Below are positions 12,526 to 21,107 of a stretch of 36,288 nt of DNA, piece by piece (the first letter of the stretch is position 1; every line of letters begins with the position of its first letter). The notes under the pieces are model-generated. The model worked only from the letters and a program-made list of their open reading frames with translations, searched no databases and was not told the origin of the DNA. The position numbers and the translations under genes were made by a program. This DNA comes from Rhizobiaceae bacterium. Lineage in GTDB: Bacteria > Pseudomonadota > Alphaproteobacteria > Rhizobiales > Rhizobiaceae. The DNA lies in the NCBI GenBank assembly GCA_016742175.1, contig JACVCH010000027.1, positions 1 to 36,288 of the forward strand, read 5' to 3'.

Positions 12526-13536
12526 CTATGCGGGCAGACAGCGGATGCGGTTGCGCTGGCGGTATTGCGCCGGCGTTACGCCCGCGCGGCGCTTGAAGAG
12601 CCTGCGGAAGAAGGTCGGGTCTTCATAGCCGACGATCGCCGATATCTCTTCGATCGCCGTCGCCTCGCTTTCCAGCATCTGCTTGGCTTCCTCGATCCTC
12701 AGCGCCTGCACGTATTCGACCGGCGTGTAGCCCGTCGCGGCGGAAAAGCGGCGTTTGAAGCTGCGGACGGGGAGGCCGGAGCGCTCGACCATGGCGGAGA
12801 CCGGGTTCGAGACGGCGTAATTGTCCACCAGCCACTCCTGTATCCGCGATATGACGGCGTCGCTGTGCTGGCGCGGGCGCGCCATGGAGGCGAAGGGCAG
12901 TTGCCCGTAGCCGCGATCGCCCAGCAGGAAGAGGCGCGCCACCCGCGCGGCCTCCTCGGCGCCGCAGAAGCGCGCGATCAGGTAAAGGGCGAGGTCCTGC
13001 CATGCCGAGGCGCCGCCGGTCGTAATCAACTGGCCGCCGCGACCACTGTCGCAGAGTATGCGCTCCGGCCGGAACCGGACGCTCGGATAGCGGTCGCGAA
13101 AGAGGTCGGCCATGGTCCAGTGCGATGCCGCCTCCGCTCCGTCGAGGAGTCCGGCCTCGGCCAGCAGCACCGAGCCGCTGCAGGTCGAGCAGACGAGCGC
13201 GCCGGATGCGACGTGCCGCTGCACCCATGCGATCTCGTCGCGCCAGCGCCCCTCGGGCGTCTCGTCCGGGTCCAGGTGAATGTCGCAGACGACCACGACA
13301 TCGGCGCACTGCGAATCGAGACCCTCGTCCGGCGTCACCTGAAGGCCGGTGCTGGACAGGAATGGCCCCTGCCGGCGCGCCACCAGAGTGGGCTTTATCG
13401 GCCGCGACAGGGCCCGCCCGTTGCGCTGGGTGTCGCCCAGCACCTCATGCAGGCCGAAGGCCGCCATGGTTCCGCTTTCCGGAAGGCTCAGGATCGAAAC
13501 GCGAAGCGGGATGGTCGAATTCGGTCGTATCAGCAT
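12526..13536 (-). CDS. GlxA-type AraC-family regulator (DJ-1/PfpI-like plus HTH)
   Basis: The 336-residue protein combines a DJ-1/PfpI-like sensor domain (about 10-200) and a C-terminal AraC double helix-turn-helix (about 225-330). The sensor has the nucleophile-elbow region CSTCSGSVLLAEAGLLDG and a following HW pair as in GlxA proteins. The HTH includes SGLPVRSFKRRFSAATGYTP and the family signature VGYEDPTFFRRLFKRRAGVT. Such regulators usually act on adjacent genes. It is divergent from the SRPBCC gene (110-bp gap), and the GST gene follows it in the same direction. A half-site ATGGCACAAA at 13546-13555 resembles the arm found at the second GlxA gene here. Confidence 0.87.
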   Translation of the reverse strand: MLIRPNSTIPLRVSILSLPESGTMAAFGLHEVLGDTQRNGRALSRPIKPTLVARRQGPFLSSTGLQVTPDEGLDSQCADVVVVCDIHLDPDETPEGRWRDEIAWVQRHVASGALVCSTCSGSVLLAEAGLLDGAEAASHWTMADLFRDRYPSVRFRPERILCDSGRGGQLITTGGASAWQDLALYLIARFCGAEEAARVARLFLLGDRGYGQLPFASMARPRQHSDAVISRIQEWLVDNYAVSNPVSAMVERSGLPVRSFKRRFSAATGYTPVEYVQALRIEEAKQMLESEATAIEEISAIVGYEDPTFFRRLFKRRAGVTPAQYRQRNRIRCLPA

Positions 13537-14121: not shown

Positions 14122-14496
14122 CTAAAGAACCAACCCGGCCGTGCCCAATGCCGCAATGGGCAGGAACAGCCAGCCCTGCGGCAAATCGCGAAAACTGGCG
14201 CCCACGGCCGGCGCCAGTGCGATCCCGACCAGGGTGAAGCCCCAGGCTAGACCCGTTCCCGCCATCGCGAAATCCGGCCGCGCGGTCAGGATGGCGAGAA
14301 GGAACAGGACGGCCATGATCGCGACTGTCACCGTCACGCAGTGCCAGCACAAATGCAGCGTGTCGCGGACCACCGGGTCGAGCGCCTGCGATGTCCGCAA
14401 CGGGCGCTCGACGTCCTTGCCGCCGAGCAGCAAATGCACGACCAGCCAAAGCGCGGCCACGCCACCTGCGACGCCAAATAGGATTTGGGTTGTCAT
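14122..14496 (-). CDS. Small four-helix membrane protein downstream of NuoB
   Basis: The 124-residue product has four hydrophobic segments (about 4-25, 52-72, 76-98 and 105-122). The second begins after a notable HLCWH motif at about residues 48-52, whose His and Cys could bind metal or heme. It starts 10 bp after the stop codon of the orphan nuoB, with GAGGTG before the ATG (a GTG one codon upstream is possible). Shared transcription under the TetR operators is likely. I do not recognise an established family, so function cannot be stated. It may act with the NuoB-like protein at the membrane. Confidence 0.7.
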   Translation of the reverse strand: MTTQILFGVAGGVAALWLVVHLLLGGKDVERPLRTSQALDPVVRDTLHLCWHCVTVTVAIMAVLFLLAILTARPDFAMAGTGLAWGFTLVGIALAPAVGASFRDLPQGWLFLPIAALGTAGLVL

Positions 14497-14505
14497 CACA
14501 TCACC

Positions 14506-15027
14506 TCAGCGTTCGATGGTGCCGGTGCGGCGGATCTTCTTTTGCAACAGCAGGACGGCATAGAGCAGCGCCTCTGCGGTCGGCGGGCAGCCGGGCACGT
14601 AGATGTCGACCGGTACGATCCGGTCGCAGCCGCGCACGACCGAATAGGAATAATGGTAGTAGCCGCCACCATTGGCGCACGAGCCCATCGAGATGACGTA
14701 GCGCGGCTCCGGCATCTGGTCGTAGACCTTGCGCAAAGCGGGCGCCATCTTGTTGGTCAGCGTTCCGGCGACGATCATCACATCGGACTGGCGCGGAGAC
14801 GCGCGCGGCGCCACGCCGAACCGCTCCAGATCATATCGCGGACCGGAGGCCTGCATCAGGCCTTCAACGGCACAGCACGCCAGGCCGAAGGTCATCCACA
14901 TCAACGATCCTGTTCGCGCCCAGGTGACCAGCGCCTCGGCACTGGTAATGACGAACCCCTTGTCGGCGAGAACATCCGACAGCGTGGCGTCGTCGCCTTC
15001 GACGGCTGTGGATACCAAGGTCATCAT
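14506..15027 (-). CDS. nuoB: Orphan NuoB-like NADH-quinone oxidoreductase subunit
   Basis: The protein is very close to NuoB/PSST, the subunit that carries iron-sulfur cluster N2 and forms the quinone site of complex I. All four ligands are present: tandem Cys51-Cys52 (FGLACCAVE), Cys117 (SMGSCANGG) and Cys147 (VPGCPP). The stretch [20 protein letters not shown] is almost the family consensus. No other nuo gene is nearby. The loop after the tandem cysteines ([16 protein letters not shown]) is one residue longer than the mitochondrial/rhizobial form I remember (CCAVEMMHMAAPRYD). The ATG at 15027 is preferred because the upstream ATG at 15051 lies inside the 16-bp palindrome 15043-15058; the longer form has 181 residues. 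It is probably repressed by the adjacent TetR protein. Confidence 0.87.
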
Positions 15028-15042
15028 ACGCTCATCCCGTTC

Positions 15043-15058
15043 CATACGCATGCGTATG
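15043..15058. promoter_or_regulatory. Perfect 16-bp palindrome, TetR operator 1 (nuoB promoter)
   Basis: CATACGCATGCGTATG is a perfect palindrome in the pattern CATACG-N4-CGTATG. It lies between tetR and nuoB and covers the upstream alternative nuoB ATG. The same pattern recurs at 15082-15097 and 15725-15740. Confidence 0.6.
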
Positions 15059-15081
15059 TAGACCAGTCAGGATGCAATGTC

Positions 15082-15097
15082 CATACGGTTGCGTATA
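15082..15097. promoter_or_regulatory. TetR operator 2 (nuoB promoter), one mismatch
   Basis: CATACG-GTTG-CGTATA matches the CATACG-N4-CGTATG pattern with one changed base, 39 bp from operator 1. Two spaced copies suggest cooperative binding or coverage of both promoter and start region. The site is only 13 bp beyond the tetR stop codon. Confidence 0.55.
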
Positions 15098-15109
15098 GTT
15101 GGTTTTCGG

Positions 15110-15700
15110 TTATCTGCCCGAGCGGCCCGAGCCGGGCGCATCGGCGATCAGCCGCTCGACGATGAAGGTCAGCGCGTCGTCGTCCGCAAGGGCCGATCCC
15201 GACGCCCGGGCGGCGAACAGCCCGATGACGGTCAGATGCATCATTTTGCTCCATTGCAGGGCCGTCGTCGGGTCGTAACCGAGCGCAGCGATTTGCTGGG
15301 CGAGAAAGGCCGTGCGATCGTCTTCGACCTTGGCGAAACGCTCGCCGATGGCGGCATCGCGTGCCGCCCATGCCCGGATAGCGGCCTCGGTCTGCGCCAC
15401 GTCGATGCCGTTGGTCTCGGCATCCAGCGTATCTCGCGCCAGCCCCCGCAACCCTTCGACCGGATCTGCGACGGCCTGGGCACGTTCGATAAGATCAGCC
15501 GTCCCTTCGCGCTCCCACAGATCGAACACCGCGTCGAGAAGCGCCTGCCGGTCGGTGAAGTGCCAGTAGAAGGAGCCCTTGGAGGCCCCGAGCTTCTTGG
15601 CGATGCCTTCGACCGACACCGAATCCACGCCATCCGCGGCGAGCGCACGCGTCGCTTCGAGGATCCAGTCTTTCGGTTGAAGCGTGTTGCGTCTTGGCAT
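15110..15700 (-). CDS. TetR-family repressor of the orphan nuoB unit
   Basis: This 196-residue TetR protein has a DNA-binding domain at about residues 8-55, including VEGIAKKLGASKGSFYWHFT, followed by a variable ligand domain. The start ATG at 15700 gives MPRRNTLQPKDWILEATRAL, the normal TetR start; the longer frame to 15751 would cross operator 3. It is followed at 58 bp by nuoB. Copies of one dyad pattern lie before tetR and before nuoB, so it likely represses both. The inducer is unknown. Confidence 0.87.
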   Translation of the reverse strand: MPRRNTLQPKDWILEATRALAADGVDSVSVEGIAKKLGASKGSFYWHFTDRQALLDAVFDLWEREGTADLIERAQAVADPVEGLRGLARDTLDAETNGIDVAQTEAAIRAWAARDAAIGERFAKVEDDRTAFLAQQIAALGYDPTTALQWSKMMHLTVIGLFAARASGSALADDDALTFIVERLIADAPGSGRSGR

Positions 15701-15724
15701 GGCATCCTGCGTCTCAAACCAATC

Positions 15725-15740
15725 CGTACGCACAAGTATG
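15725..15740. promoter_or_regulatory. TetR operator 3 (tetR promoter), imperfect
   Basis: CGTACG-CACA-AGTATG keeps the 6-4-6 layout of operators 1 and 2 with two arm changes. It is 25 bp upstream of the tetR start codon, where an autoregulatory site is expected. Confidence 0.5.
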
Positions 15741-16546: not shown

Positions 16547-17683
16547 TCAGCGCGGATATTCGAGCTGCATGGCGACGACGTTGGCCGTCGGCTCGCCGTA
16601 GCTTTCGGTGATGGCGTCAAGCGTCCGGTCCAGCGCGTCGGCAAGGCGGAGGTTCGGGAAGGTCGACACCCGGCGGTCCACTGGCCCATCGCCATCGACG
16701 CGATCCGGCAGGATGCGGACACCGTTTGCCGTCGTGATGGGCGACGATGTGCCTCCATAGGTGACCGCTTTCGACCGGTATGTCCGCGACCACGCGTCTG
16801 CCACCAGCGCGAGCGCAGCCTCGTCCATGCCGGGTTGCAGGTCTATGCCCCAGGTGTCGCGGTTCCAGAATGCCATGCGGTTGGCGAGCACCGTCGTTGC
16901 GAAAGAGCGCGTCAGCGCGAACGCAGCGCTCGAATGCCGTGCATCCCAGGCTTCAATGCCGAGAGCATCGGCGACCTTCTTCGCCTTCTCGCGACCGGCA
17001 ATCGCTTCGATCAAGGTCAGCATCATCGGCATCGCGGCGGTGATGCCTGTTGTGGTCACCATGTTTCCGTCGGCCACCATGCGCCGGTCGGCGACATAGT
17101 CGATCGTCGGGCTTCGTTCGAGCATCTCGCTGCGATAGTACCAGTGTGTGGTCGCGCGTTTGCCGTCGAGCAGGCCGGCAGCGCCGACCACCTTTGCGCC
17201 GGCGCAGACGCCGAGGATAATCGCCCCTTTCCGGGACTGGTCCTGGAGCCATGCAAGCACCGCAGGATCATCGTCCCGGCTCATCGCCGGGACGATCACA
17301 TAATCGGCCCCGTCGGGATGCCGGGCGTCGAAGTCCGCGGTCGTTGCGTCCGCCTCCACGCGAAGCGCGGGATAAAGCTGGACCGGACCCGGCCCGGTCG
17401 CCAGCATCATGACATCGGCTACGTCCGCTCGCCTCAGGATGCCGGTCGTCGTGACGTAGTCGTTGGTCTCGGTGGCATCGTTGAGCCCGATGACCGCAAT
17501 CACGGGTCGGCCTTTTCCTTCGTGCCGCAGCGCCGCGAGCATGGCGACGGTTTCTTCTTGCGGAACCGGTGGAGCCTCTGTCGCTGCCGTCGCGGGCGGA
17601 AGACTGAAGACCCAGCCGGCAAAACCTGCGAGCCCGAGAAGAACGATTGCGACACCGCCCCAGATGAAGATCGATTTCGACAT
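16547..17683 (-). CDS. Membrane-anchored DJ-1/PfpI family protein
   Basis: This 378-residue protein has an N-terminal membrane helix or signal anchor (about residues 5-27, IFIWGGVAIVLLGLAGFAGW) and then a DJ-1/PfpI-like domain in the cell envelope. The nucleophile elbow is IILGVCAGAKVVGAAGLLDG, with a nearby TTHW, as in GlxA-type sensors but without the AraC HTH. The C-terminal part (after about residue 230) has a further helical region. It is divergent from a full-length GlxA regulator whose DJ-1 domain is similar, and the two share a 123-bp promoter region with a long inverted repeat. It might sense or process a small molecule in the periplasm; function unproven. Confidence 0.8.
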   Translation of the reverse strand: MSKSIFIWGGVAIVLLGLAGFAGWVFSLPPATAATEAPPVPQEETVAMLAALRHEGKGRPVIAVIGLNDATETNDYVTTTGILRRADVADVMMLATGPGPVQLYPALRVEADATTADFDARHPDGADYVIVPAMSRDDDPAVLAWLQDQSRKGAIILGVCAGAKVVGAAGLLDGKRATTHWYYRSEMLERSPTIDYVADRRMVADGNMVTTTGITAAMPMMLTLIEAIAGREKAKKVADALGIEAWDARHSSAAFALTRSFATTVLANRMAFWNRDTWGIDLQPGMDEAALALVADAWSRTYRSKAVTYGGTSSPITTANGVRILPDRVDGDGPVDRRVSTFPNLRLADALDRTLDAITESYGEPTANVVAMQLEYPR

Positions 17684-17771
17684 GAGCGCATTTCTCCAGA
17701 GAAACATCGGATAGGCCGCCGATTGATTGGCGCTTCCGACGTCTCGCCCGGAATCTAACAGCGAGCACCTA

Positions 17772-17806
17772 TGGCAGAAATGACAAAAGCATGGTAATTT
17801 CTGCCA
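17772..17806. promoter_or_regulatory. Inverted repeat with 10-bp arms at the GlxA start codon
   Basis: TGGCAGAAAT (17772-17781) and ATTTCTGCCA (17797-17806) are perfect inverted arms separated by 15 bp, and the right arm ends exactly at the GlxA ATG. No Shine-Dalgarno sequence is visible, so the repeat could be an operator for the divergent pair, or fold in mRNA. The left arm with its preceding A (ATGGCAGAAA) resembles ATGGCACAAA at 13546 beside the other GlxA gene. Confidence 0.55.
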
Positions 17807-18787
17807 ATGCACAATGTCGCCTTTGTCGTTTATCCCGGCTTCGAACTACTTGACGCATCCGGCCCGGCTTCGGTGTTCAACAGCGCCAACCGGGCGCTCG
17901 GCCAACAGGACAAGCCTGAGTACTACGAGATTGCCCTGCTATCTGCCGACGGCGGGACCGTTGAAAGCAGCAGCGCCATCGCGGTCGACACGCGGTCGAT
18001 CGCCGACATGAAACCCGGTGAGGTTCAGACCATTCTGGTGGCGGGTGCGGAACGGGACCCGCTGTTGGCTGCCGTTCACAATCCGGTTCTGCGCGCAGCG
18101 CTTCCGGCGCTCGCGGCGAAGTCCGAGCGTTTCGGTTCGGTCTGTTCCGGCGGTTTTCTGCTGGCCTCGATTGGTTTGCTCGACGGCCATCGCATCGCCA
18201 CTCACTGGGATTCCTGCAAACCGCTTGCCGCTGCCTTCCCGGCGGTCACCGTCGATCCGGATGCGCTCTACGTCGTGGATGGTCGGCTCTGGACATCGGC
18301 CGGCGTTACCACCGGTATCGACATGGCCCTGGCGATGATCGCCAGCGATCTGGATGCCGCCATCGCCGGCGACGTCGCAAAGCGGCTGATCCTCTACGCA
18401 CGGCGTCCGGGTTACCAATCCCAGTTCAGCCCGGTGCTGCACGCGCAGGTCAAGGGCGACAGCCCGTTCGCCGATCTGATCGGCTGGATACAGGCCAATC
18501 TCGACACGCCGCTGGATATCCCCTCTCTGGCTGACCGCGCGGGATTGAGCGAGCGCACCTTCCACCGGAAATTCGCGGCAGCGACCGGGCAGTCGCCTGC
18601 CCGGTTCGTCGAGACTGCCCGACTTGACGCAGCCCGGATGCTGCTGTCGCGCGGTCTCTCGCTGAAATCTGTCGCCGCACAGGTGGGTTTGTTTCCGGCT
18701 GCTCGCTTTTCCGAGGTCTTCGAACGACGGTTCGGCGTCGCGCCAAGGCTTTTCCGCGACATGCATGCGGAGTTTGCGCTTCGCTAA
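17807..18787 (+). CDS. GlxA-type AraC-family regulator, divergent from DJ-1 protein
   Basis: The 326-residue protein has a DJ-1/PfpI-like domain at about 3-195 with MHNVAFVVYPGFELLDASGP at its start, the elbow FGSVCSGGFLLASIGLLDGH, and a THW pair. An AraC HTH follows at about 225-320 (RAGLSERTFHRKFAAATGQS, VGLFPAARFSEVFERRFGVA). It is expected to regulate the divergent membrane DJ-1 gene and itself through the 17772-17806 repeat. It converges with the DUF899 gene, leaving only a 9-bp gap. Confidence 0.88.
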   Translation: MHNVAFVVYPGFELLDASGPASVFNSANRALGQQDKPEYYEIALLSADGGTVESSSAIAVDTRSIADMKPGEVQTILVAGAERDPLLAAVHNPVLRAALPALAAKSERFGSVCSGGFLLASIGLLDGHRIATHWDSCKPLAAAFPAVTVDPDALYVVDGRLWTSAGVTTGIDMALAMIASDLDAAIAGDVAKRLILYARRPGYQSQFSPVLHAQVKGDSPFADLIGWIQANLDTPLDIPSLADRAGLSERTFHRKFAAATGQSPARFVETARLDAARMLLSRGLSLKSVAAQVGLFPAARFSEVFERRFGVAPRLFRDMHAEFALR

Positions 18788-18796
18788 AGCGCGCCA

Positions 18797-19489
18797 CTAG
18801 CGATAGCGGTCGTGGCGGCGCACCCAGTCCATTCCCTCGGCCTCGTTGCGGCCCTTCGGGGCAAGATCGAGCATGGCGTAGGTGCCCATCATCACCTCGA
18901 CGCCGCGCCCGTAGGTGGAGTAGGTGCGGAAGACATCGCCCGCGTCATCCTTGTAGAAGGCGCTGACGCCGGGCCATTCCTCGCCGGTTTCCCGCCATTC
19001 CCCGAAGTTGTAATCGATATCTCCGCTGGCAACCTCCTCGGGTGTGAAGCTGACGCGGAAGTCGTAGTTGAAGTCGTTGCCGAAGGACGACACCCAATTG
19101 AACCGCCAGCCCATGCGTTCGCGGTAGCGCTCGATCTCGGCAAGCGGAGCGCGCGAGACGGCGATCATGGTGACGTCGTGATGCGCCAGATGCTTGTTCA
19201 TGCCGTCGGTGTGATCGGCCATGTAGGAGCAGCTCGGGCAGCCTTCCTTCCATCCCGGCGCGAGCATGAAATGTTGCACCAGAAGTTGCGATCGACCGTC
19301 GAAGAGATCGGCCAGCGTGCGCGGGCCATCGGGCGTGTCGAACACATACTCCTTGTCGATGCGCACCCATGGCAGGGCGAGCCGTTCACGGGCGACCGTG
19401 TCGCGAAGACGCGTGAGTTCCTTCTCCGCTTTCAGGAGGTTCCGTCGGGCAGTCATCCAGTCTTCGCGTGAAACAACAGCGTGTTGCAT
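18797..19489 (-). CDS. DUF899 thioredoxin-like family protein
   Basis: This 230-residue protein matches the DUF899 family, a thioredoxin-fold group common in Alphaproteobacteria. It starts MQHAVVSREDWMTARRNLLK, has the family stretch QHFMLAPGWKEGCPSCSYMA (a C-P-S-C pair) and ends FRTYSTYGRGVEVMMGTY then AEGMDWVRRHDRYR. The CxxC suggests a redox or peroxiredoxin-like role, but no reaction is firmly established for the family. AAGGAGACTGACA before the ATG at 19489 is a strong ribosome site placed inside the end of the preceding small gene, so the two are co-expressed. Confidence 0.87.
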   Translation of the reverse strand: MQHAVVSREDWMTARRNLLKAEKELTRLRDTVARERLALPWVRIDKEYVFDTPDGPRTLADLFDGRSQLLVQHFMLAPGWKEGCPSCSYMADHTDGMNKHLAHHDVTMIAVSRAPLAEIERYRERMGWRFNWVSSFGNDFNYDFRVSFTPEEVASGDIDYNFGEWRETGEEWPGVSAFYKDDAGDVFRTYSTYGRGVEVMMGTYAMLDLAPKGRNEAEGMDWVRRHDRYR

Positions 19490-19491
19490 TG

Positions 19492-19785
19492 TCAGTCTCC
19501 TTCGGTTTGGGTGGGGGGAATGTTGGGGCGCTGCGAACGGGCGGAAACGAGCTTCATCCAGGGTGATAGGTGAAAGAGGCTCATCAGCGCGTACATCAGC
19601 GCCATGTCGTCGATCGGCATGAAAGCCGAGGCGGCGGAGCACATCGACATGCCCGCTGTTCCGACGGCGGAAAAGCAGGCCATCACCGCGAAGGTTGGAG
19701 CGGCAGCCAGTCCGAGCCATTCCGCCGCTTCGATCGCCGGTCGGGGCGACGAAGCGACTTTTTCCGTTCCTGTGCGCATAGACAT
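19492..19785 (-). CDS. Small membrane protein upstream of DUF899 gene
   Basis: The 97-residue product has two hydrophobic, Ala- and Met-rich segments (about 24-46 and 54-75) and a charged tail ending PNIPPTQTEGD. The start ATG at 19785 is chosen because AGGA sits 6 bases upstream; other in-frame starts go back to 19809. It ends 2 bp before the DUF899 start, so the pair is an operon. I recognise no named family. The divergent TPR-wHTH regulator across a 101-bp gap is the likely controller. Confidence 0.6.
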   Translation of the reverse strand: MSMRTGTEKVASSPRPAIEAAEWLGLAAAPTFAVMACFSAVGTAGMSMCSAASAFMPIDDMALMYALMSLFHLSPWMKLVSARSQRPNIPPTQTEGD

Positions 19786-19886
19786 TTCGAGTCCTGACAT
19801 CGAATTCACCGTTCCAGCGGTTACGATAGAAAGACGCTAGCTCGGGCGGAGGGTTGGTTGAGAGTTACAAGTGTGACGGGATTTCA

Positions 19887-21107
19887 ATGGACCTAGCGAT
19901 CACTGCCGCTGCCCGCGCGCTCTCGGCTGGCGATCCCCTCGCTGCGCTGAAGACGGTCGCATTGCGCGATGACCCACCGGCGCTGGCGTTGCGCGGCATC
20001 GCGATGGCCCAGCTCGGCGACCTTGCGCGCGCCAGGGAGCTTCTGCGAAACGCGGCACGTCGCTTCGGCCCGAAAGAGCCTGCGGCTCGCGCGCGTTGTG
20101 CCGTCGCCGAAGCGGAGATCGCACTGGTTTGTCGCGATCTGGGCCGATCCTTGCAAACGCTCAACGAAGCGCGGGCGGTACTTGAAGCTTCCGGCGACCG
20201 AAGCAATGCCGCACATGCCGGCTATCTCGAAGCGCGGCACCTCCTCCTGATCGGTCGCCTCGATGAAGCCGAAGGCGTGCTCGGTGGGGTCGATGCCGGC
20301 GTTCTGCCACGCGCTTCGCTGGTCGGGCGCGAATTGGTGGTGGCGGGCATGGCCATCCGTCGCATCAAGACAGAGCCGGCGAGAACCGCTCTGGGTCGGG
20401 CAAGACGGGCAGCGGAAGAGGCGCGCATTCCAGCGCTCGCGACCGAGGTCGATCAGGCAGTGCGGGCATTCGAGGCGCCGGCGGCACGCCTCGTCACCCG
20501 CGACGCCGATCGGCTGCTCCATCTCGAAGAGGTCGAGAGGCTGCTGGCCTCAAAAACGCTCATCGTGGACGCCTGCCGCAACCTCGTGCGTAGCGGAACA
20601 ACAATCGTTCCGCTCGCCACCCGCCCGGTGTTGCTTGCGCTCATCCGTGCCCTTGCGGAGGCATGGCCGGAGGATGTACCGCGCGAGAGGCTTCTCAAAC
20701 GCGCTTTCCGGGCGCGGCATGCCGACGAGTCGCACCGGGCGCGATTGCGTGTCGAAATCGGCCGGCTGCGCGAGGCGATTAAACCGGTCGCAGAGGTGAG
20801 TGCGACCCGGCGAGGTTTCGTTTTGCTGCCGCATGCCGCGCGCGATGTCGCCGTGCTGGCGCCGCCCGTCGAAACCGATCATGCCGAAGTGCTCGCTCTG
20901 CTGGGCGACGGCGAAGCCTGGTCCAGTTCGGCATTGGCGCTGGCGTTGAGCGTGAGCCCGCGGACGGTGCAGCGGGCACTCGAAGAGCTCGCCCATGACA
21001 GCAAGGTCGAGGCCTTCGGACGCGGGCGTGCCTGCCGCTGGATCGCCTCGACCGTGCCCGGATTCCCGACAAGCTTGTTGCTCCCCGTCGCGGGAATTTC
21101 CGGCTAG
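19887..21107 (+). CDS. TPR-containing winged-helix regulator
   Basis: The 406-residue protein has an N-terminal region (about 1-200) of alpha-helical tetratricopeptide-like repeats, with ALRGIAMAQLGDLARARELL and ALVCRDLGRSLQTLNEARAV. A winged-helix-like section at about 240-320 (LLALIRALAEAWPEDVPRER, RARLRVEIGRLREAI) resembles the OmpR/SARP-type DNA-binding layout, and a C-terminal helix-turn-helix follows (SSSALALALSVSPRTVQRAL). Such proteins are predicted transcriptional regulators. It is followed 9 bp later by the propeller gene and faces the DUF899 operon, which suggests control of both. The start at 19887 (MDLAITAAARALSAGDPLAA) is preferred over the 19854 GTG-type extension. Confidence 0.75.
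   Translation: MDLAITAAARALSAGDPLAALKTVALRDDPPALALRGIAMAQLGDLARARELLRNAARRFGPKEPAARARCAVAEAEIALVCRDLGRSLQTLNEARAVLEASGDRSNAAHAGYLEARHLLLIGRLDEAEGVLGGVDAGVLPRASLVGRELVVAGMAIRRIKTEPARTALGRARRAAEEARIPALATEVDQAVRAFEAPAARLVTRDADRLLHLEEVERLLASKTLIVDACRNLVRSGTTIVPLATRPVLLALIRALAEAWPEDVPRERLLKRAFRARHADESHRARLRVEIGRLREAIKPVAEVSATRRGFVLLPHAARDVAVLAPPVETDHAEVLALLGDGEAWSSSALALALSVSPRTVQRALEELAHDSKVEAFGRGRACRWIASTVPGFPTSLLLPVAGISG

Follow-up and report, generated by a model that had tools for sequence, protein, structure and literature searches.

The window, by which we mean the whole stretch of 36,288 nt analysed, contains a predicted tetR-family repressor gene, a lone paralogue of nuoB and a gene for a four-TM (4TM) membrane protein, in the order tetR, nuoB, 4TM and all on the - strand. 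In the lone NuoB the loop at the quinone pocket is of the Agrobacterium type, unlike that of the resident NuoB. The operon is tentatively explained, with a likelihood that we place somewhat below even, as a TetR-repressed unit supplying an inducible replacement NuoB, which would change the quinone pocket of complex I, perhaps as a response to a quinone-site toxicant.

Genes of the operon

The genes, and the first part of the cluster N2 site, are located as follows.

15110..15700, - strand: predicted tetR-family repressor gene; ATG at 15698-15700, with a longer TTG reading from 15751
14506..15027, - strand: lone nuoB paralogue, identified with Pfam and NCBIfam profiles; a lone counterpart is found in genome G559
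14872..14877, - strand: first two N2-cluster cysteines, C59 and C60 in the 181-aa reading (residues counted by hand)
14122..14496, - strand: gene for a membrane protein with four TM segments (counted by eye), 9 bp downstream of the nuoB stop

The tetR product has the N-terminal helix-turn-helix TetR_N (Pfam, E 6.9e-13). Its likely start is the ATG at 15700 rather than 15751. The longest nuoB open reading frame (14506-15051, - strand) corresponds to the 181-aa reading and has its start within a palindrome at 15043-15058. The start at 15027 given in the sequence-only reading is likely, with a purine-rich stretch just upstream as seen by eye, and with this start the palindrome sits 16-31 bp upstream of nuoB.

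The frame of the lone nuoB is intact and the protein matches the NuoB profiles of Pfam (PF01058, E 9e-28) and NCBIfam (E 1.1e-76). All four N2-cluster cysteines are kept (C59, C60, C125 and C155 in the 181-aa numbering). No nuoA, nuoC or nuoD was found in the 3-kb stretches around the gene, which places it outside a nuo operon. The earlier description of a NuoB-like protein with four N2 cysteines standing alone thus agrees with the profiles, the cysteines and the lack of adjoining nuoA, nuoC and nuoD.

Candidate operators and predicted TetR control

Three palindromic sites were considered, none of them assigned to a strand.

15043..15058: candidate operator, exact palindrome CATACG-N4-CGTATG
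15082..15097: candidate operator, CATACG-N4-CGTATG with one mismatch, spaced 39 bp from the neighbouring site
15725..15740: degenerate third site with two mismatches, located 25-40 bp upstream of the tetR start

At one mismatch or fewer the pattern occurs only at the two sites before nuoB in the whole 4.3-Mb genome, in which a reversed-pattern control at the same threshold gave no site. When up to three mismatches are allowed, the window contains 6 matches, no more than expected by chance (shuffle mean 11.35). A match as good as that of the third site, with two mismatches or fewer, was seen in none of 1,747 overlapping 220-bp segments of background. Palindromic sites are therefore found near both tetR and the target gene, the one before tetR being weak. 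Three matching operators had been proposed; the two before nuoB are retained and are unique in the genome, whereas the third is degenerate and no such site precedes tetR in the sister operon of G559.

The tetR-nuoB-4TM arrangement, for which a search of other genomes had been suggested, recurs in G559, which belongs to another genus. The gene order is the same, both sites are perfect and they are 39 bp apart. The G559 block is flanked by other genes than the own block (by eye). Matches to the 4TM protein at E 1e-8 were obtained in 6 of 394 family genomes, and the close ones are restricted to the own genome and G559 (81%); the four further genomes covered from the own genus gave no match. Between the two blocks dN is 0.092 and dS 0.706 for tetR (84% identical), 0.082 and 0.766 for the lone nuoB, and 0.118 and 0.817 for the 4TM gene, corresponding to dN/dS of about 0.13, 0.11 and 0.14, respectively. 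Purifying selection on the genes of the block is well supported by these estimates.

Among 397 genomes of the order, 29 (the own one counted) contain relatives of the 4TM protein, as do 14 of 151 relative genomes, a set that partly overlaps with the order genomes. The search with the 4TM protein gave 40 other loci (L011-L039, L120-L127 and L188-L190; 2.0-3.4 kb each), which often contain a tetR relative and in no case a nuoB. The motif test comprised 38 4TM genes outside the window, with L037 (a false match), L126, L036 and duplicate loci left out. In 19 of these 38 loci the 250 bp upstream of the 4TM gene contain an exact ATAC-N6-GTAT; the loci are not independent, as some are near-identical (e.g. 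L031 and L034). The motif was present in 18 of the 23 loci where a tetR was detected and in one of the other 15, G559 being scored as a miss because its sites precede nuoB. The motif was absent from 913,344 bases of control DNA (80 nuo-operon loci). Two exact sites occur in 9 of the 38 loci, with a spacing of 39 bp in four, and this spacing is also seen in the window pair, the G559 pair and the L126 pair.

Since the motif precedes 4TM in tetR-linked loci and is lacking in the controls, the sites appear to belong to TetR and 4TM, and nuoB would consequently have arrived between the operators and the 4TM gene. On this comparison of loci the predicted operators, TetR and 4TM are a module older than the nuoB within it. 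The TetR-4TM modules of the same order, whose family is nameless in the searched libraries, resemble the own locus in the TetR relative, the 4TM relative, the ATAC-N6-GTAT sites and partly the 39-bp pairs. They differ in that they have no nuoB and in that tetR is divergent from or downstream of the 4TM gene. The predicted control of nuoB by TetR, and with it repressor control of the lone nuoB operon as proposed in the sequence-only reading, is well supported by the conservation of the sites across relatives (phylogenetic footprinting).

The resident nuoB and the origin of the lone copy

A second nuoB, 87% identical to the lone NuoB over residues 24-181, is located at G000:C2:17490-17960. It adjoins nuoA, nuoC and nuoD in the 3.5-kb part of the operon that was read. 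The case named earlier as refuting a regulated accessory role, that the lone nuoB is the only copy in the genome, is excluded by this resident copy.

At the nucleotide level the resident nuoB is the nearest gene to the lone one (0.859). An origin by duplication of the resident gene was rejected, as the protein tree and a shared insertion group the lone NuoB with the Agrobacterium-type clade; third positions are too dependent on base composition to be used for this question. The NuoB tree had 105 rows, after exclusion of viral contigs and of operonic rows that were identical. The own and the G559 lone NuoB are sisters (96/84) and join the operonic insertion clade (90/96) in this tree, the bootstrap of which is not settled.

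A phage origin was also considered and was dropped, the phage records giving 8 NuoB matches that were all below 60% identity. In IMG/VR 8 NuoB loci were found. Three of them (L157-L159) have nuoA and nuoC adjoining nuoB, L164 is incomplete, and the remaining four (L160-L163, NuoB 71-75% identity) may be cellular or phage DNA. No nuoA, nuoC or nuoD was found in the stretch searched of L160-L163 with S. meliloti queries, which distant genes may escape.

The quinone-pocket loop

14842..14862, - strand: loop of the quinone pocket, GLMQASG, with one residue inserted relative to the resident NuoB (alignment including PDB; coordinates counted by hand)

The resident NuoB has AVE-MIHTSM-PRYD in this segment and the lone NuoB a stretch of 14 residues, longer by one. 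The lone and resident loops of G559 are GLMHASG and MIHSAM, respectively. The segment corresponds to Met59-Met60 in bovine PSST numbers, and Met60 is described as pointing at the quinone head group in passages of PMC7567858 and PMC9503403. The same passages report a higher KM for quinone and resistance to DQA and rotenone for variants of Yarrowia Met91, the Met60 homologue. The ligand-site residues differ between the two proteins; in the PDB-based alignment, where the best match is 8qby, complex I of Paracoccus denitrificans, the lone NuoB has Leu59, Met60 and Gly64, and the resident Met59 and Ile60. The lone protein retains the resistance-linked Met60 and the resident does not, so that the direction of any resistance is unpredictable.

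The insertion is also found in the operonic nuoB of Agrobacterium vitis, A. cavarae and, among the other family genomes, the 21 with the best match (L129-L149), while the nuoB of the next seven genomes (L150-L156) is without it. As it is present in the operonic nuoB of all these 21 genomes, the insertion is no novelty of the TetR lineage. Outside the insertion this lineage has no excess of change in the loop (1/42 against 11/220 elsewhere), and an excess beyond the insertion, which had been considered, was not borne out.

The insertion accompanies the NuoD substitutions Q16E and A19S in 23 of 23 operonic loci, compared with 1 of 82 without the insertion, and Q at NuoB position 66 in 23 of 23 compared with 1 of 85; the loci were chosen by similarity to the lone NuoB and are thus an uneven sample. 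Both NuoD substitutions fall in the loop bearing the quinone-ligand histidine, and because the insertion co-varies with them the NuoB loop is taken as part of a remodelled pocket. The complex I of the Agrobacterium type (L040, L041 and L129-L149) can be described as having a naturally remodelled quinone pocket.

The operonic NuoB of A. vitis (L040) and A. cavarae (L041) shares the GLMQASG insertion with the lone NuoB, at a core identity of 94% and 93%, but is part of an operon with nuoA, nuoC and nuoD, is combined with E16 and S19 in NuoD and has Q at position 66. The own resident NuoD has Q16 and A19 and the lone NuoB keeps T66. Replacement of the resident subunit would therefore give a hybrid pocket, which may not be tuned.

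Proposed mechanism

In the repressed state TetR would be bound to the paired operators over the promoter of nuoB and the 4TM gene. A ligand would release TetR, and both genes would be expressed. The new NuoB would compete with the resident NuoB during complex I assembly, and the resulting complex I molecules would carry the Agrobacterium-type loop in the quinone pocket, with a presumably altered binding of inhibitor or quinone. The likely benefit is that respiration could continue despite a quinone-site toxicant fitting the resident pocket. The 4TM protein would then have an accessory membrane function in the same response. Subunit swapping under stress, one of two roles suggested before, has become likelier through the resident nuoB with its nuoA, nuoC and nuoD, the differing pocket loop and the purifying selection, all of which are features of the sequences.

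Other lone NuoB lineages

NuoB was found at E 1e-60 in 287 of 297 family genomes, nine of which have two copies. One of the nine (G651) has two operons and the other eight have one lone copy each.

A deep clade (100/100) comprises five AraC-linked lone NuoB (L183-L186 and L192), from G461, G497, G599, G626 and, in another family, G093. Each of the five nuoB genes is divergent from an AraC-type regulator (HTH_18 tested for one). The arginine corresponding to bovine R77, referred to as a tunnel arginine in passages of PMC3750175 and PMC9503403, is replaced by P, M or S in all five. Conserved loop positions are changed in 27 of 105 cells, compared with 58 of 550 elsewhere in the protein; the operonic background is 27 of 2,499 in the loop and 124 of 13,089 elsewhere, and the cells are not independent. 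Relatives of the AraC-type regulator at E 1e-25 are present in 9 of 337 order genomes. The gene beside them was assigned in seven, as nuoB in one (G093), Abhydrolase_3 (alpha/beta hydrolase) in five and P450 in one.

Another lineage, mostly located on plasmids (L005, L006, L009, L174 and L176; clade support 94/81), has a normal pocket loop (8/105 changed in the loop and 23/550 elsewhere). The neighbours are stress genes in L005 and L006. A Nitratireductor plasmid copy (L008) adjoins a different tetR and has a long branch of its own in the tree.

Complex I subunits outside operons on plasmids

The plasmid survey was made at 60% identity or more, and a gene was designated lone when outside a nuo operon. 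Among the matches listed, lone copies made up 11 of 21 for NuoB (22 counted; one record, Eleftheria, is unassigned), 7 of 14 for NuoD (20 counted), 0 of 6 for NuoH and 0 of 6 for NuoI (7 counted). Of 7 NuoC matches 2 were lone, each with a lone NuoD as its neighbour and one of them partial, and of 9 NuoF matches 3 were lone. The neighbourhoods were read for 4 of the 11 lone NuoB, all 7 lone NuoD and none of the 3 NuoF, the other designations meaning absence from the listings of the other subunits, which omit low-coverage records. Two NuoD at E 1e-130 were found in 7 of 285 family genomes, including G651.

The Rhizobium plasmid pR132503 (L201, NC_012853.1 368000-396000) is part of both the NuoB and the NuoD count. 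Its nuoB lies about 9 kb from nuoCD on the opposite strand, and sdhD is also found within the 28 kb read. The nuoC-nuoD pair, the separate nuoB and sdhD of this plasmid sit among the stress genes DUF892, Mn-catalase and Hsp20. Six further plasmids (L202-L207) have nuoD outside an operon, in one of them in 4 pieces, and a DUF4142 or DUF892 gene is present within the stretch read in four of the six.

Alternative explanations

The lone NuoB could instead be a stress spare part that replaces resident NuoB damaged at N2 by oxidation or heat, with TetR sensing an electrophile or oxidant and without any need for a changed pocket. We hold this to be rather unlikely as an account of the present operon, although it agrees with the plasmid lone nuoB genes, which keep the normal loop and stand beside rpoH and FdxA or beside Hsp20, Mn-catalase and DUF892. 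One lone nuoB of the AraC lineage adjoins a gene of DUF417, the family of RclC, which points in the same direction. The normal pocket favours this plainer explanation for the plasmid-type lineage and fits poorly with a general resistance story, and some lone NuoB copies may be plain spares. The pocket-loop insertion, and the altered R77 in the AraC lineage, are on the other hand left unexplained by it. NuoI also carries Fe-S clusters, yet the plasmid copies outside operons are NuoB and NuoD and not NuoI, at 60% identity and among the matches listed.

It is improbable that the lone NuoB and the 4TM protein act together as a small redox unit in the membrane, separate from complex I, which was the second of the two roles suggested before. 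The 4TM protein has no family in Pfam, NCBIfam or PHROGs and no significant PDB sequence match (best E 0.28), and the assignment to a known family was dropped after these searches. Among 39 sequences of the 4TM family H21, G25, W51 and H52 are invariant at 90% or more, and the two strongly conserved histidines, as well as the distance of 9 bp between nuoB and the 4TM gene and their joint occurrence in two genera, would suit a redox partner. This role is weakened by the lack of nuoB in the 40 other 4TM loci. Nor has NuoB diverged as would be expected with a changed partner; core identity is 92% for the pair of lone copies and 94% in the comparison with the operonic NuoB of A. vitis.

That nuoB is a passenger, landed by chance in a tetR-4TM operon and with no selected function, would agree with its absence from those 40 loci and with the rarity of the block (a close 4TM gene in 2 of 394 family genomes, own included), but is the least probable explanation considering that dN/dS is about 0.11 over a dS of 0.77 and that two genera have retained an intact frame, all the cysteines and the spacing of the operators.

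Comparison with known systems

The closest proven analogue of a replacement NuoB is alt-SDHC of Zymoseptoria tritici (ZtSDHC3), described in PMC6941823 as a dispensable paralogue that replaces the resident quinone-site subunit and changes the inhibitor response. Both are paralogues of a single subunit at the quinone site of a respiratory complex. As with alt-SDHC, a resident copy is present and the ligand-site residues differ, and which of the two NuoB proteins would resist is not predictable from them. The differences are that alt-SDHC is a subunit of complex II in a fungus, for which both assembly and resistance have been reported, whereas the lone NuoB is a predicted subunit of bacterial complex I, described from its sequence. 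Unlike alt-SDHC, the lone NuoB has a predicted dedicated repressor with predicted operators. In the part of the open-access journal literature consulted, no precedent for a lone or inducible NuoB was found.

A wider reading is possible but doubtful, namely that Alphaproteobacteria carry mobile, regulated target-replacement genes for complex I. These would encode subunits of the quinone pocket from a place apart from the nuo operon, namely NuoB and, on plasmids, NuoD. There are three clades of lone NuoB, two of which have altered pocket residues and lie beside ligand-type regulators (TetR and AraC). The alternative pocket would be switched on when the cell meets a natural quinone-site poison. 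Complex I is usually viewed as a fixed enzyme. If the proposal is true, a repressor-controlled spare of the subunit that bears N2 and half of the quinone pocket would mean that bacteria can retune this pocket on demand, and natural quinone-site poisons would be indicated in the habitat of the host. Studies of the quinone mechanism would also gain pocket variants that already exist in pairs, together with the NuoD residues that co-vary with them.

Genes near the operon

Three proteins with a DJ-1/PfpI domain are encoded near the operon (window positions 12526-13536, 16547-17812 and 17807-18787), and two of them are AraC-type regulators. The region with a DUF899 gene (window positions 18804-20000) is 80-89% identical to Pelagibacterium, Roseibium and Labrenzia plasmids, an identity which suggests DNA exchange with plasmids close to the operon.
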